IMG/VR virus record: IMGVR_UViG_3300044707_000751
Coordinates: 1 to 43,695 of that record
Reading direction: 5' to 3' (one strand)
Source: a virus
DNA: 43,695 nt
Positions within the stretch are counted from its first letter, which is position 1; each line of letters starts with the position of its first letter. Below are positions 1-4,175 of the stretch, piece by piece. The position numbers and the translations under genes are program-made. A model generated the notes under the pieces. It worked only from the letters and a program-made list of their open reading frames with translations, was not told the origin of the DNA and made no database searches.

Positions 1-1
1 T

Positions 2-1222
2 ACGGGTTTTTTAAATGCATTAGGAGAATCGCACTTATATGTAAATGTAAAGCGGTGTCCTAATCTTACAAGATGCTTAGAGCAGCAACCATTGGGAGAT
101 GATGGCAAGCCCGAAAAGAAAAAAGATATGGATCATATGTGCTTTTCTAGTAATACTCTTGTAGCTACTCCTAACGGTGCGATCGCATTTAAAAACTTGC
201 CAGAATCAGGATTTATTTATGTGGACAGTGAAACCATCGCGCCATATACAAATTGTGGCATTAAAAAACCTTTAGCACAGACGCTAAAGGTTACGCTAGA
301 TAATGGTAAAATAATAGAATGCACGCCAGACCATAAGTTTTTGACAGAACAGGGCTGGCGTGAATGCCAAAATCTATTAAACCAAGAAATATTATGCAGC
401 AAGTTGATCCAACAATATCAGGAAAATTCCAATTTTTTGATGGGATTAAATACAAAAGACGCGGCAAAAGCGGCGGCATTCGGTATTTTGTTAGGGCAAA
501 CTTTGTTAAGGGTGAAACCCAATATTTGCACCGCAAAGTCTGGGAATATCATCGCGGCGAAATCCCTAGAGGTTTTCAAATTCATCATAAAGACATTGAT
601 CCATCTAACAACAAATTGGACAATCTTGAGTGCATTGAAGCCGTTGAACATATGCGATTGCATAATCAGGAATGGAAAGAGCGCGATCCTGAAGGGTATG
701 CACTCAGTAAAAAAACAAGCATTGCTAACGCTCGTAAATACGCCTCTCTATGGCATAAAACGGATGAAGCAAGAGCGATGCACAGTGCAAACTCAAAAGC
801 AATCATTGAGCGAAACCGCAAAACTCTACCTGAAAAAACTTGTCCAATTTGCGATAAAGGATTTCAGCCATGCATGGGAGTCCAAGAATTTTGCTCCAAA
901 AAATGCAACAACATTAACAAGGCTAGAAACCGTAGATCATCAGGTATTGATAACGAATCAAGAAAATGTCAACATTGCGGATCTGAATTTATCACCAATA
1001 AATACGTTAAAAAACTTGGATGTTCTCCAACGTGTTCGCGTCATATCAATCGAACCGTCAAAGAATCAGGATGTTTATTGTCTTACAGTCCCTAGTCATG
1101 GTTACTTTTTATTAGCCGATGGTGAGATAGTTAAAAACTGCGATGCTGCGGGTTATGCTGCTTATAGATTATTACCAATTAGAGCAGGATCAGGATTCGG
1201 TACTAGTCGGGCGCGTGGGTAG
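2..1222 (+). CDS. terL: Terminase large subunit, C-terminal part (partial), interrupted by an intein
   Basis: The frame is open from the left edge, so the gene starts outside the window. The N-extein in the window is 46 codons (2-139) and the C-extein is 27 codons (1139-1219) plus the stop. Joining them gives ...KKKDMDHM|CDAAGYAAYRLLPIR, which fits the last conserved motif of the RNase H-like nuclease domain of phage terminases (D-x-x-D-A-x-x-Y). The large subunit translocates DNA into proheads and cuts the concatemer. The portal gene follows 204 bases downstream, as usual for packaging genes. The TTG at 92 is only an internal codon, not the start. The N-terminal ATPase domain is not visible, so the name rests on the motif, the end of the protein and the neighbours. 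Confidence 0.78.
   Translation, partial: TGFLNALGESHLYVNVKRCPNLTRCLEQQPLGDDGKPEKKKDMDHMCFSSNTLVATPNGAIAFKNLPESGFIYVDSETIAPYTNCGIKKPLAQTLKVTLDNGKIIECTPDHKFLTEQGWRECQNLLNQEILCSKLIQQYQENSNFLMGLNTKDAAKAAAFGILLGQTLLRVKPNICTAKSGNIIAAKSLEVFKFIIKTLIHLTTNWTILSALKPLNICDCIIRNGKSAILKGMHSVKKQALLTLVNTPLYGIKRMKQERCTVQTQKQSLSETAKLYLKKLVQFAIKDFSHAWESKNFAPKNATTLTRLETVDHQVLITNQENVNIADLNLSPINTLKNLDVLQRVRVISIEPSKNQDVYCLTVPSHGYFLLADGEIVKNCDAAGYAAYRLLPIRAGSGFGTSRARG
140..1138 (+). other. Intein (333 residues) in the terminase nuclease motif
   Basis: A Hint-type protein-splicing element in frame with the terminase. It begins with Cys (CFSSNTLVATPNG, block A), has a block B with T62 and H65 (ECTPDHKFL), and ends in HGYFLLADGEIVKN followed by Cys+1 (blocks F and G). 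The terminal Asn and the +1 Cys are present. The penultimate residue is Lys rather than the usual His, a variation found in some active inteins. Between blocks B and F lie about 235 residues that look like no endonuclease in this frame. The same DNA encodes an HNH protein in another frame. Splicing should restore a conserved nuclease motif, so the terminase probably needs it. Confidence 0.85.
364..1095 (+). CDS. HNH homing endonuclease nested out of frame inside the intein
   Basis: A 243-residue protein lies wholly within the intein but in the -1 (+2) frame relative to it. It has an HNH_3-type core at about residues 55-100: HRKVWEYHRGEIPRGFQIHH, then NN at 82-83, DNL at 86-88 and H96. Two zinc-finger-like units follow (C160/C163 with C177/C181, and C202/C205 with C220/C224). 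The ATG at 364 directly follows an in-frame TGA at 361, so nothing upstream can be part of it. No good Shine-Dalgarno is seen. The ORF starts about 11 codons after block B and ends inside block F. It probably cuts an intein-less terminase allele so that the element can home. The host frame stays open across the whole overlap. Confidence 0.8.
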   Translation: MPKSIKPRNIMQQVDPTISGKFQFFDGIKYKRRGKSGGIRYFVRANFVKGETQYLHRKVWEYHRGEIPRGFQIHHKDIDPSNNKLDNLECIEAVEHMRLHNQEWKERDPEGYALSKKTSIANARKYASLWHKTDEARAMHSANSKAIIERNRKTLPEKTCPICDKGFQPCMGVQEFCSKKCNNINKARNRRSSGIDNESRKCQHCGSEFITNKYVKKLGCSPTCSRHINRTVKESGCLLSYSP

Positions 1223-1396
1223 TGTATCTGTTGCTTTAGTTACCGTATCCTTGCTAATCGTAATCGACTCAAGCGCACTACGCGATCGCAAATCTTTGGG
1301 GACAACAACGCCTAACTTCTTAAGATTAGCTCTAATCTCTGCTACTTTGCCAGTATTAGCATGTGAAATAATTGCTAAATGTTTTTTTATAGACAT
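1190..1396 (-). CDS. Hypothetical small protein, antisense to the terminase end
   Basis: A 68-residue ORF starting MSIKKHLAIISHANTGKVAE fills the gap between terminase and portal on the opposite strand and overlaps the last 33 bases of the terminase. The middle is basic and helical-looking and the end is Ser/Thr-rich. No family is recognised and no ribosome binding site is visible. A lone - strand gene among late + strand genes could be a regulator, or the ORF may be chance. Confidence 0.3.
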   Translation of the reverse strand: MSIKKHLAIISHANTGKVAEIRANLKKLGVVVPKDLRSRSALESITISKDTVTKATDTLPTRPTSTES

Positions 1397-1426
1397 ATAA
1401 TAAAAACAAATCAATACTTATAGATT

Positions 1427-2989
1427 ATGTCGGAAATTGAAATCATTCAACCTAATGAAGCGTTTACATGGCGCTCCAATAAATTAGGTGAGAATAATAA
1501 AGCTAGCCCAAACTATAAACACCCTGATTATATTGAATATCAATATGATGTAGAGCGTTGCGAAGACTTCTATGAGGGGCGTAGAGCGTGGATATCAGGA
1601 CGTTATTACAGCAATTTTGACACAATTAAGCTACAGGAATATCTACCTAAGAACCCTGCTGAAGAAACCGAAGAGTATTTTGATCGGGCGCGACAAACTC
1701 TGTTTCATAACTTTTTCCGTCCATCGGTTGACATGTTTGCTGCATTGATAAGCAAATTTGACCTTACAGACAATGTAAGTGAATCAATACTTATCAATCA
1801 AAGCAATATTGACCTTAAGGGATCTGACTTAATCAGCTTCAAAACTGATGCAGATACGTGGGCATTACGTGATGGCTTTGCGGTAATAGTCGTCAGCTAT
1901 CCAGAGAATGCGATCGCTAATCCTAGACCATACTTAAACTTAATTGAACGTGATGACCTGATTAATTGGGATTTCACCTATGACGAAAGCGGCGCTGAAA
2001 AAATGACGCTAGCTGTTATTAAGCGTGAAGAAACCGAAAAGATTAATCAGTTTGCAAGTGAAGAAATTGAGACAAGATGGGTCTATTCTCTTGATGAAAA
2101 CGGCTTTGTAACCACGGAAAAATATTATAAGAGCATCGAAAAATCAAAGCCTACACGCGGTAAAAAAACAACATCAACAGAGCTATGGGTCAGATACGAT
2201 CCACCCGTGATTTTGCGCGATGCAAATCAGCAGCCATTGACCGAGATTCCGATTGTGATTTACTCAGTAAGCGATCGCGATGCTATCTGCTCAGCACCTC
2301 CCCTATTGGATTTGCTTGAAAAGGTAAAATGCCATTACCAGAATTACTCTAGCTATCAGCGCACAATCTATAAGTTACAGCCAACCTATAAACGCAAATG
2401 GGCTGACTTTATCCCAGATAATCCGCCCTCACTGGTGATTGGTGGGAGCTTAGCAATCGAATGCTCTAACGGCTCTGATGTTGGCGTTTTGCAGATTGAC
2501 CCGTCCGCAGTAGAACCTATGCGCCAAATGCTTTCAGATTTACGTGCAGAAATCAAAGCAGAGGCTTTATCCTTCTTGGGACAAGGATCGGTGCAGCAAA
2601 CTGATGACGAAATTGCTCTCAAGATGGCGCAGGGCAAAGCATCGTTACGCAAGTTTGCTTTAAGGCAAAAGAGCTTATGGCAAACGGTATTTAGTTTCTG
2701 GGATAGGTGGACAGGAGTAGAACCTACTGATGCGAGTATTGACGTGGATATCAATGTACTTGATAAGCCAGTCACTCCTCAAGAAGTGCAAGTGGTACTT
2801 GATGCTGTAGCCACTGGTACTATGGACGCTGACACGGGATCGGCTAAACTAAATCAGTTGCGATGGTTGCCTGAGGGGCTAAAACTTAGTGCGATCGCGC
2901 CGCCGCAAAGTATTCCTCAAACTAATAAAGTGATGATTAATAAGGTTGACGATTCAGAAGATGATAATGATGATGAGGTGCAATCATGA
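1427..2989 (+). CDS. Portal protein (DUF4055-like)
   Basis: 520 residues. The portal forms the dodecameric ring at the head vertex through which DNA is packaged and to which the tail attaches. The pattern YLPKNPAEETEEYFDRARQT followed by an HNFFRPSVDMFAALISKFDL stretch matches the start of the DUF4055 portal-like family. A central FLGQGSVQQTDDEIALKMAQ stretch and an acidic C-terminus (DDSEDDNDDE) follow. Length and position between terminase and scaffold fit. The ATG start has no clear Shine-Dalgarno, which is common in cyanobacteria. The stop overlaps the next start (ATGA), suggesting translational coupling. Confidence 0.82.
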   Translation: MSEIEIIQPNEAFTWRSNKLGENNKASPNYKHPDYIEYQYDVERCEDFYEGRRAWISGRYYSNFDTIKLQEYLPKNPAEETEEYFDRARQTLFHNFFRPSVDMFAALISKFDLTDNVSESILINQSNIDLKGSDLISFKTDADTWALRDGFAVIVVSYPENAIANPRPYLNLIERDDLINWDFTYDESGAEKMTLAVIKREETEKINQFASEEIETRWVYSLDENGFVTTEKYYKSIEKSKPTRGKKTTSTELWVRYDPPVILRDANQQPLTEIPIVIYSVSDRDAICSAPPLLDLLEKVKCHYQNYSSYQRTIYKLQPTYKRKWADFIPDNPPSLVIGGSLAIECSNGSDVGVLQIDPSAVEPMRQMLSDLRAEIKAEALSFLGQGSVQQTDDEIALKMAQGKASLRKFALRQKSLWQTVFSFWDRWTGVEPTDASIDVDINVLDKPVTPQEVQVVLDAVATGTMDADTGSAKLNQLRWLPEGLKLSAIAPPQSIPQTNKVMINKVDDSEDDNDDEVQS

Positions 2990-3357
2990 GTACATGGACA
3001 GCAACCGATGTCACCAACATCAAAACAATATTCAACCTTGAATATAAATATGTGCAACGCATCGAGGAAGCTCTTACAGATTTTGAGAATCAATATACTG
3101 CTACCGCGATCGCTGATTTGCAAACCAAAATCAATGAGGCGATCGCCCTGAAAGCAACCATCGCAGGAATAGAGCAAAGTGCAGACTTTGGAGTTACGAG
3201 TCAATCAGTCCCATCCTTTTACTCAATCACTCGCAAGGATGGCACTGAGGTAAGCGGCTATCGCAATGCCTATGACAGCCTCAAGCAGACTATTAGCAAT
3301 GAACTTAGATTGCAAGACGTTGCCCGAATCAATACAACTAGAATTATTAGAGCTTAG
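2986..3357 (+). CDS. Hypothetical head-region protein with helical N-terminus
   Basis: 123 residues, starting in an ATGA overlap with the portal stop, so it is almost certainly co-translated. The first 65 residues are predicted-helical (FENQYTATAIADLQTKINEA) and the end is polar (LRLQDVARINTTRIIRA). No family is recognised. Position between portal and scaffold suggests a connector or minor head role, but this is inference. HIP1 octamers occur inside the gene. Confidence 0.65.
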   Translation: MSTWTATDVTNIKTIFNLEYKYVQRIEEALTDFENQYTATAIADLQTKINEAIALKATIAGIEQSADFGVTSQSVPSFYSITRKDGTEVSGYRNAYDSLKQTISNELRLQDVARINTTRIIRA

Positions 3358-3365
3358 GAGAATTT

Positions 3366-4139
3366 ATGCGATTTCATTGGAATCATTATTTTTATCAATC
3401 TGAAACTACCGACGGTGACACAGGCGGGGGTGCTGATAATCCATTGGGCCCAAAGGGAGAAAAAGCTTTAGAAGCAACCAAACAGAAAGCGCGTGAACTC
3501 GAAAAACAACTTGCGGAAGAGCGTGAGAAAAATAAAAGATTTGAGGGTATCGACCTAGCCAAAGTTGAGGAGGCTCTCAAATTCCAGCAAGAGGCGGCGA
3601 TCCGTGAAGCTGAAGCTAAAGCCAATACAGAAGAAGCCCGCAAACTTGAAAGAGAACAAGCGGCTGCTGAGAAGAAACGTTTGCAAGCCGAAAAAGAGCA
3701 AGCTGAAAAGGAGAAACTAGCAGCAAGGGCAGAATTAACAGAGACTCGTATCGATGCAGCGATCGCTCTTAACTTGGCTAACACTGGTATCAAACCTCAG
3801 TACACTGGCTTACTATCCAAGGATCAGGAGTTTCGTGGTCAGCTAGCCTATATGACAAAAGCTGCCGATGGTGTTGATAATGATGGGATCTATGTTGTCG
3901 ATAAGTCTGGCGATCCTCGATATCATCCAGATGATCGCAATAAGTACCTACCTATCGATCTTTGGATTGAGACTGAGATTGCCAAAAAATATCCTGATAT
4001 GTTTGTTGCGCGTGTCGGTACTGGCGATGGCTTAAGCGGTAGACGTGGTAAGCGTGGCGGCGGTCTAGATATTGAAGCACTTGGCAAAATGAGTCCAACA
4101 CAACGAGCCGAAGAGGCAAGACGAATGAATTTAAGATAA
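3366..4139 (+). CDS. Capsid scaffold protein
   Basis: 257 residues. After a short N-terminus, residues about 30-125 are a highly charged coiled coil rich in Lys, Glu and Ala (QKARELEKQLAEEREKNKRF). A more globular part (ALNLANTGIKPQYTGLL) and a Gly/Arg-rich stretch (SGRRGKRGGGLDIEALGKM) follow. This layout, just upstream of the major capsid gene, is typical of phage scaffolding or minor structural proteins that guide prohead assembly. A TTAGGAG Shine-Dalgarno lies 6 bases before the ATG. Confidence 0.7.
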   Translation: MRFHWNHYFYQSETTDGDTGGGADNPLGPKGEKALEATKQKARELEKQLAEEREKNKRFEGIDLAKVEEALKFQQEAAIREAEAKANTEEARKLEREQAAAEKKRLQAEKEQAEKEKLAARAELTETRIDAAIALNLANTGIKPQYTGLLSKDQEFRGQLAYMTKAADGVDNDGIYVVDKSGDPRYHPDDRNKYLPIDLWIETEIAKKYPDMFVARVGTGDGLSGRRGKRGGGLDIEALGKMSPTQRAEEARRMNLR

Positions 4140-4141
4140 TC

Positions 4142-4175
4142 AACAAAAAAGGAGCGTAACAGCTCCTTTTTTGTT
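4142..4175. terminator. Bidirectional intrinsic terminator
   Basis: Perfect 14-bp stem (AACAAAAAAGGAGC with its complement) around the loop GTAACA, with A and T runs on the outer sides. It lies three bases after the scaffold stop and five bases from the end of the - strand methylase gene, so it can end both transcripts. Confidence 0.85.

Follow-up and report, generated by a model that had tools for sequence, protein, structure and literature searches.

The large terminase (TerL) gene at the left end of the window, a viral sequence of 43,695 nucleotides (IMG/VR record IMGVR_UViG_3300044707_000751), carries what is very probably a mobile intein system in which one piece of DNA encodes two proteins separately. 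The TerL reading frame is interrupted at the nuclease active site of the enzyme by an intein, and the DNA encoding the middle of this intein also contains, in a different frame, the complete gene of an HNH endonuclease.

Positions 2–1222 of the window form a single open frame (frame 2), which runs from the N-extein (…KKKDMDHM) through the intein into the C-extein (CDAAGYAAYR…); the intein is thus not split. The N-extein portion present (2–139, plus strand) is the C-terminal part of a terL gene that extends past the left end of the window; it matches phrog_10250 (terminase large subunit, 2.4e-4) and ends at the RNaseH metal-site motif. The intein occupies 140–1138, from Cys1 (140–142) to N333 (1136–1138), and gave matches to Pfam Intein_splicing (2.8e-11) and to NCBIfam intein_Nterm (5e-7) and intein_Cterm (0.009). 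Its N-terminal splicing part (140–397) comprises block A with Cys1 and block B with the TxxH motif (TPDH, T62 to H65), and its C-terminal splicing part (1031–1138) comprises blocks F and G and ends V-K-N333; both parts are also seen in the AF2 model. The following C-extein (1139–1222, CDAAGYAAYRLLPI) begins with the +1 nucleophile Cys. Between the two splicing parts, positions 398–1030 encode in the intein frame a linker that is the stop-free +1-frame reading of the HNH gene and is predicted to be largely disordered. C1, T62 and H65 showed no variation across 36 aligned inteins. The penultimate residue is Lys instead of the His that characterizes class 1 Hint inteins; since the penultimate His is variable among known active inteins, the Lys was not counted as excluding. 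The portal gene (phrog_145) follows downstream from 1427. Opposite the end of TerL and the gap between TerL and portal, the minus strand has a 74-aa ORF (1190–1414) that could be a small gene. A 34-bp palindrome (4142–4175), located directly after a gene ending at 4139 and matching relatives in reverse orientation too, is probably a terminator.

The nested HNH gene extends from an ATG at 364 to a TAG ending at 1095 (plus strand, 243 aa) in frame 1, i.e. the −1 frame relative to the intein. Its product matched Pfam HNH_3 (1.2e-15) and, across residues 39–233, phrog_15471 (1.8e-30). The catalytic core (H74 H75 … N87 … H96 … H100) is encoded by 583–663 and a first zinc ribbon (C160, C163, C177, C181) by 841–906; a second zinc ribbon (C202, C205, C220, C224; 967–1035) was recognized in the HNH alignment and the AF2 model, and its end overlaps the start of intein block F. 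Over the HNH core, the intein frame contains no stop codon, compared with 30 in the third frame. AF2 modelled the HNH protein with an overall pLDDT of 89. A fold search with this model returned weak matches only, and the HNH assignment for this reason rests on sequence, by which I-HmuI (1u3e) is the best PDB match. The possibility of a chance ORF was rejected, because homology recognizes the product as an HNH protein and 84 loci share this layout. These matches and frames confirmed all of the coordinates, the −1 offset, the intein blocks, the H-N-H core and the two zinc ribbons of an earlier, sequence-only reading of this DNA.

Seed relatives were collected by tblastn of the window HNH protein against phage records. 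Matches were located inside terL of unrelated phages, namely gut phage MT838676, Tetrasphaera phage TJE1, Acinetobacter phage Highwayman and a Rhodobacteraceae phage; in each of these, TerL with a complete intein reads through a −1-frame HNH ORF. A search of IMG/VR and of GTDB, the latter with one genome for each species, with an alignment of the seed HNH proteins yielded 146 further loci, and all loci (n = 159) were then sorted with profiles for HNH and for both intein ends. This alignment search was far more productive than single-sequence scans of viral contigs, which found no relatives with the window HNH and one relative with the window intein. One continuous intein in the HNH+1 frame, with the HNH gene accordingly in the −1 frame, was present in 84 of the 159 loci. 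Five more (L082, L085, L091, L100 and L101) have one continuous intein in the HNH+2 frame and probably represent an independent nesting event. In 19 loci the N and C parts of the intein reside in separate ORFs on either side of the HNH gene; by profile classification, a single intein end was seen in three loci and no intein was found in 48. An in-frame HNH fusion was found in none of the 108 intein loci and in none of the 159 overall. The nested total of 89 loci corresponds to 88 distinct ones, L133 and L134 having given identical results and being counted once.

Nested loci came from viral contigs as well as from contigs assigned to Bacteroidota, Bacillota, Pseudomonadota, Actinomycetota, Chloroflexota, Myxococcota, Nitrospirota, Patescibacteria, Thermoplasmatota and Nitrososphaerota. 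A Pfam scan of the host proteins identified terminase families in most loci, and nearly all recognized host genes encode TerL. Most insertions lie close to the RNaseH active site; some, such as those of L147 and L071, are in the ATPase domain. In the annotated records that we looked at (Tetrasphaera phage TJE1, Highwayman and the Rhodobacteraceae phage), terminase is the sole annotation at the nested site. The census also bears on what the sequence-only reading had proposed. It supports, together with the start sites described below, a separate HNH gene that is nested out of frame, begins just after block B and is unfused. A regularly broken frame among homologues is not what we observed: in the loci whose intein frame is broken over the HNH gene (most of the 19 split ones), the intein has turned into two halves.

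Both proteins have retained their key residues in the nested loci. On the intein side, Cys1 is present in 88/88, TxxH in 86/89, and the terminal Asn and the +1 Cys/Ser in 89/89, while the penultimate position is His in 58/89 and Ser in 23/89. On the HNH side, the core residues (His-His, Asn and His) and all four Cys of the first ribbon occur in every one of the 89 loci. Stop codons in the intein frame over the HNH core were compared with an expectation from synonymous-codon shuffling with each gene's own codons, in loci long enough to test. None occurred in any of the 81 testable −1-frame nested loci, with 161 expected in all (log10 P about −105), a count that is partly zero by construction because an open frame is what defines a nested locus. 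The codon sets of nested loci are likewise depleted, giving 2.0 expected stops compared with 6.1 in relatives, and this depletion is independent of the class definition. No avoidance was seen in free HNH relatives (6.2 stops observed, 6.1 expected) or in split-locus relatives (6.5 observed, 6.5 expected).

The chosen HNH starts lie mostly 218–302 nt past Cys1, directly after block B. Using a match of at least 4 nt to AGGAGG, 4–11 nt upstream, as the criterion for a Shine-Dalgarno (SD) sequence, we found that 38 of 112 HNH-frame ATGs in the post-block-B region were preceded by an SD, versus 5/142 and 3/88 in the other frames and 1/109 for internal Met codons (p = 4e-12 for the HNH-frame enrichment). 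About half of the loci have no SD at the chosen start. The window itself has a weak candidate site, AGGG (351–354), 9 nt upstream of the HNH ATG and in the region of the family-wide enrichment, which falls short of the 4-nt criterion. Judged by these start-site sequences, internal initiation is the likely route of HNH expression, in line with the separate expression suggested earlier.

Selection on the shared DNA is strongly asymmetric. Differences at HNH codon positions 1/2/3 numbered 724/646/1264 in related nested pairs, a distribution much like the 391/294/654 of non-nested controls. More diverged nested pairs share 53–70% identity in HNH versus 28–50% in the overlapping intein-frame peptide, and this middle peptide is far less conserved than either HNH or the splicing blocks. 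The substitution pattern thus points to purifying selection on the HNH frame, with the middle evolving as an HNH gene; selection on the middle in the intein frame is mainly for the absence of stop codons. The need for dual coding is limited to about 40 bp near 1031–1068, where the last part of the second zinc ribbon runs into block F. The idea that the overlap restricts each codon in both frames is therefore wrong: the codon-position pattern is that of the HNH frame alone, and the intein-frame middle is unconserved and predicted to be disordered. AF2 assigned the window intein pLDDT values of about 95 for residues 1–80 and 93–97 for residues 301–333; the middle remained mostly at 35–65, with one short helix at 76–84. 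A fold search with this model retrieved the DnaB, gp41-1 and RecA mini-inteins, gp41-1 being the best solved match of the splicing domain. Going by the predicted structure, the stretch of the intein that is read off the HNH gene is a largely passive linker.

Comparison with empty alleles argued that the element is mobile. Two relatives (L002 and L003) carry the window's terL without the intein; they align without gaps to the N-extein as far as the junction, and the C-extein is the same as theirs beginning 10 bp past it. Between L002 and the joined flanks of the window, 10 of 501 positions differ, all within −12 to +9 of the junction. The more distant L004–L006 are empty as well, with the same site sequence, and since these outgroups lack the element, the window most simply represents the derived state. 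Among Acinetobacter phages, one of 42 related records, that of Highwayman, has the element; the flanks of the empty Acba_21 are 99.6–100% identical to those of Highwayman, with mismatches again clustered at the junction. Such a mismatch pattern is characteristic of homing in which a short donor flank is co-converted, and the near-identical empty alleles indicate recent homing in two phage groups, in which the HNH enzyme probably spreads the intein.

Several other explanations of the layout were considered. Programmed −1 ribosomal frameshifting might produce the HNH protein fused to the N-extein and the N-terminal part of the intein, with no internal initiation. The −1 frame of 84 of the 89 nested HNH genes would fit this, but HNH-frame starts with an SD are strongly enriched right after block B and five loci use the other frame. 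Moreover, the frame bias is accounted for by stop density: relatives have about 6 stops in the frame that needs to stay open for −1 nesting versus about 19 in the other, and the −1 frame is preferred because about a third as many stops are met. We consider frameshifting improbable. A sequencing or assembly indel that broke an in-frame fusion has next to no likelihood, as the frame offset is identical in 84 loci on independent contigs and in-frame cases are absent; this also excludes errors near 361–364 or 1090. An in-frame fusion as such was rejected on the same census count.

One of the two frames could also be dead, either as a decayed HNH gene in a mini-intein or as an intein-frame pseudogene around a live HNH gene. 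The unconserved middle peptide of the intein frame speaks for this; however, the 89 loci retain the catalytic residues of both proteins, the HNH frame appears to be under purifying selection and the intein frame avoids stops, and we regard this explanation as very improbable. In other phages, HNH proteins encoded next to terminase genes help with packaging (Kala et al., 2014, as cited in passages of PMC10448857 and PMC12613952), and nearly all recognized hosts here are TerL, which raises the prospect that the HNH protein is a packaging-associated terminase helper and not a homing endonuclease, its location inside TerL being incidental. Against this, near-identical phages differ in whether they have the host intein, their mismatches cluster at the junction, and the nearest solved relative is the homing enzyme I-HmuI; a packaging role is about as improbable as frameshifting.

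We favour a mobile intein with a separately encoded homing endonuclease, which would work as follows. In the TerL frame, the DNA would specify a class-1 Hint intein, with a long, stop-free and mostly unstructured linker between its two halves; to judge from its conserved residues, this intein would splice itself out and leave an intact TerL. A free zinc-ribbon HNH endonuclease would be made from the same DNA in the −1 frame, beginning at its own start after block B. This enzyme would cut intein-less terL at the insertion site, and repair would copy the whole element. What selection would maintain is the sequence of the HNH protein and, for the intein frame, mainly freedom from stops.

As to origin, an HNH gene probably homed beside or into terL, in the manner of its free-standing relatives, and landed out of frame in an intein. 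Free-standing HNH relatives next to terL without an intein (L011, L012, L013, L020 and L021) are part of the family. A stop or frameshift gained later in the intein frame would give a split intein with the endonuclease between its halves, the state of L016, L018 and 17 others. In the HNH tree, free, nested and split states are intermixed with several changes of state, and the tree gives no order for nested-first versus split-first; a nested-to-split direction is plausible, L106 being split with nested sisters (L029 and L113). There is in our estimate an even chance that frame-nested inteins are a large unannotated class of mobile elements in TerL of bacterial and archaeal phages and prophages, whose splicing domain and homing endonuclease share DNA in two frames, and that they represent a stage by which free endonucleases enter inteins and natural split inteins arise.

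Inteins and HNH homing endonucleases are each already known. Like canonical bifunctional inteins with an in-frame LAGLIDADG or HNH domain, the window element has Hint blocks A, B, F and G, has endonuclease sequence between B and F, and interrupts an essential protein at its active site; unlike in those, the endonuclease has a gene of its own in another frame and is not part of the excised intein. In the 'fractured genes' split inteins (gp41-1, NrdJ-1) that Dassa et al. are said to have described in 2009, a free-standing endonuclease reportedly lies between the halves. Here, too, the endonuclease is coded separately between intein halves, and 19 relatives are split in this way, whereas in the window and the other nested loci the intein runs unbroken, as a single polypeptide, through the HNH gene. 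The nucleases differ as well, being HNH_3 with zinc ribbons here and Vsr-like in the fractured genes. With the I-HmuI-type endonucleases of phage group I introns, the HNH protein shares the HNH_3 core; it is carried by an intein and not by an intron, and has extra long helices and two zinc ribbons.

The closest published case is the ShiLan domain, an out-of-frame HNH insert in a phage DNA methylase (PMC11855218, Genes 2025). It resembles the window element in having a zinc-finger HNH in the second frame of an insertion that is open in the host frame, and in its patchy distribution. Its authors found no intein splicing domain and propose that the insert remains in the methylase (PMC11855218), whereas the host frame in the window is a recognizable intein (by its Intein_splicing match and Hint fold) and the host gene is terL. 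The sequence-only reading knew of no standard family with this layout. This needs qualifying: the out-of-frame HNH inserts published in 2025 (PMC11855218) are not inside an intein, but the census reveals the layout to be a widespread family of its own. We found no description of the frame-nested continuous architecture and its breadth in the full texts searched. In a passage of the ShiLan paper, the authors state that overlapping frames are frequent in actinobacteriophage inteins of 'non-canonical architecture', citing their own 2025 preprint (PMC11855218); that preprint may describe part of the frame-nested architecture.

On the reading favoured here, the cutter of a mobile element can be encoded by a separate gene concealed in the same DNA, which makes the family a natural, recurrent case of two unrelated proteins packed into one sequence by one mobile element. 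It would also offer a concrete route by which endonuclease and intein become associated without domain fusion, and a candidate origin of split inteins. Built-in controls are available, since relatives of this nuclease occur in nested, split and free-standing form, and expression, splicing and homing can be tested directly by means of the conserved start sites and the pairs with and without the element. Standard gene calling probably misses such nested elements, given that the annotated records examined show terminase alone.

Further arrangements were noted among the census loci. In the public phage records L014, L015 and L019, GenBank gives the long terminase ORF alone, and the nested HNH genes are unannotated. 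Vibrio phage 1.245.O (L018, positions 1–3446) has a TerL with two inteins, one close to its N-terminus and another that is split, the halves of which flank and overlap an HNH gene; the C half is annotated apart as a 'hedgehog/hint domain protein'. TerL or TerL-like ORFs apparently with two inteins, the downstream one with a frame-nested HNH gene, were seen in L084, L128, L133 and L145, and the upstream intein contains an in-frame LAGLIDADG domain in L084, L133 and L145.
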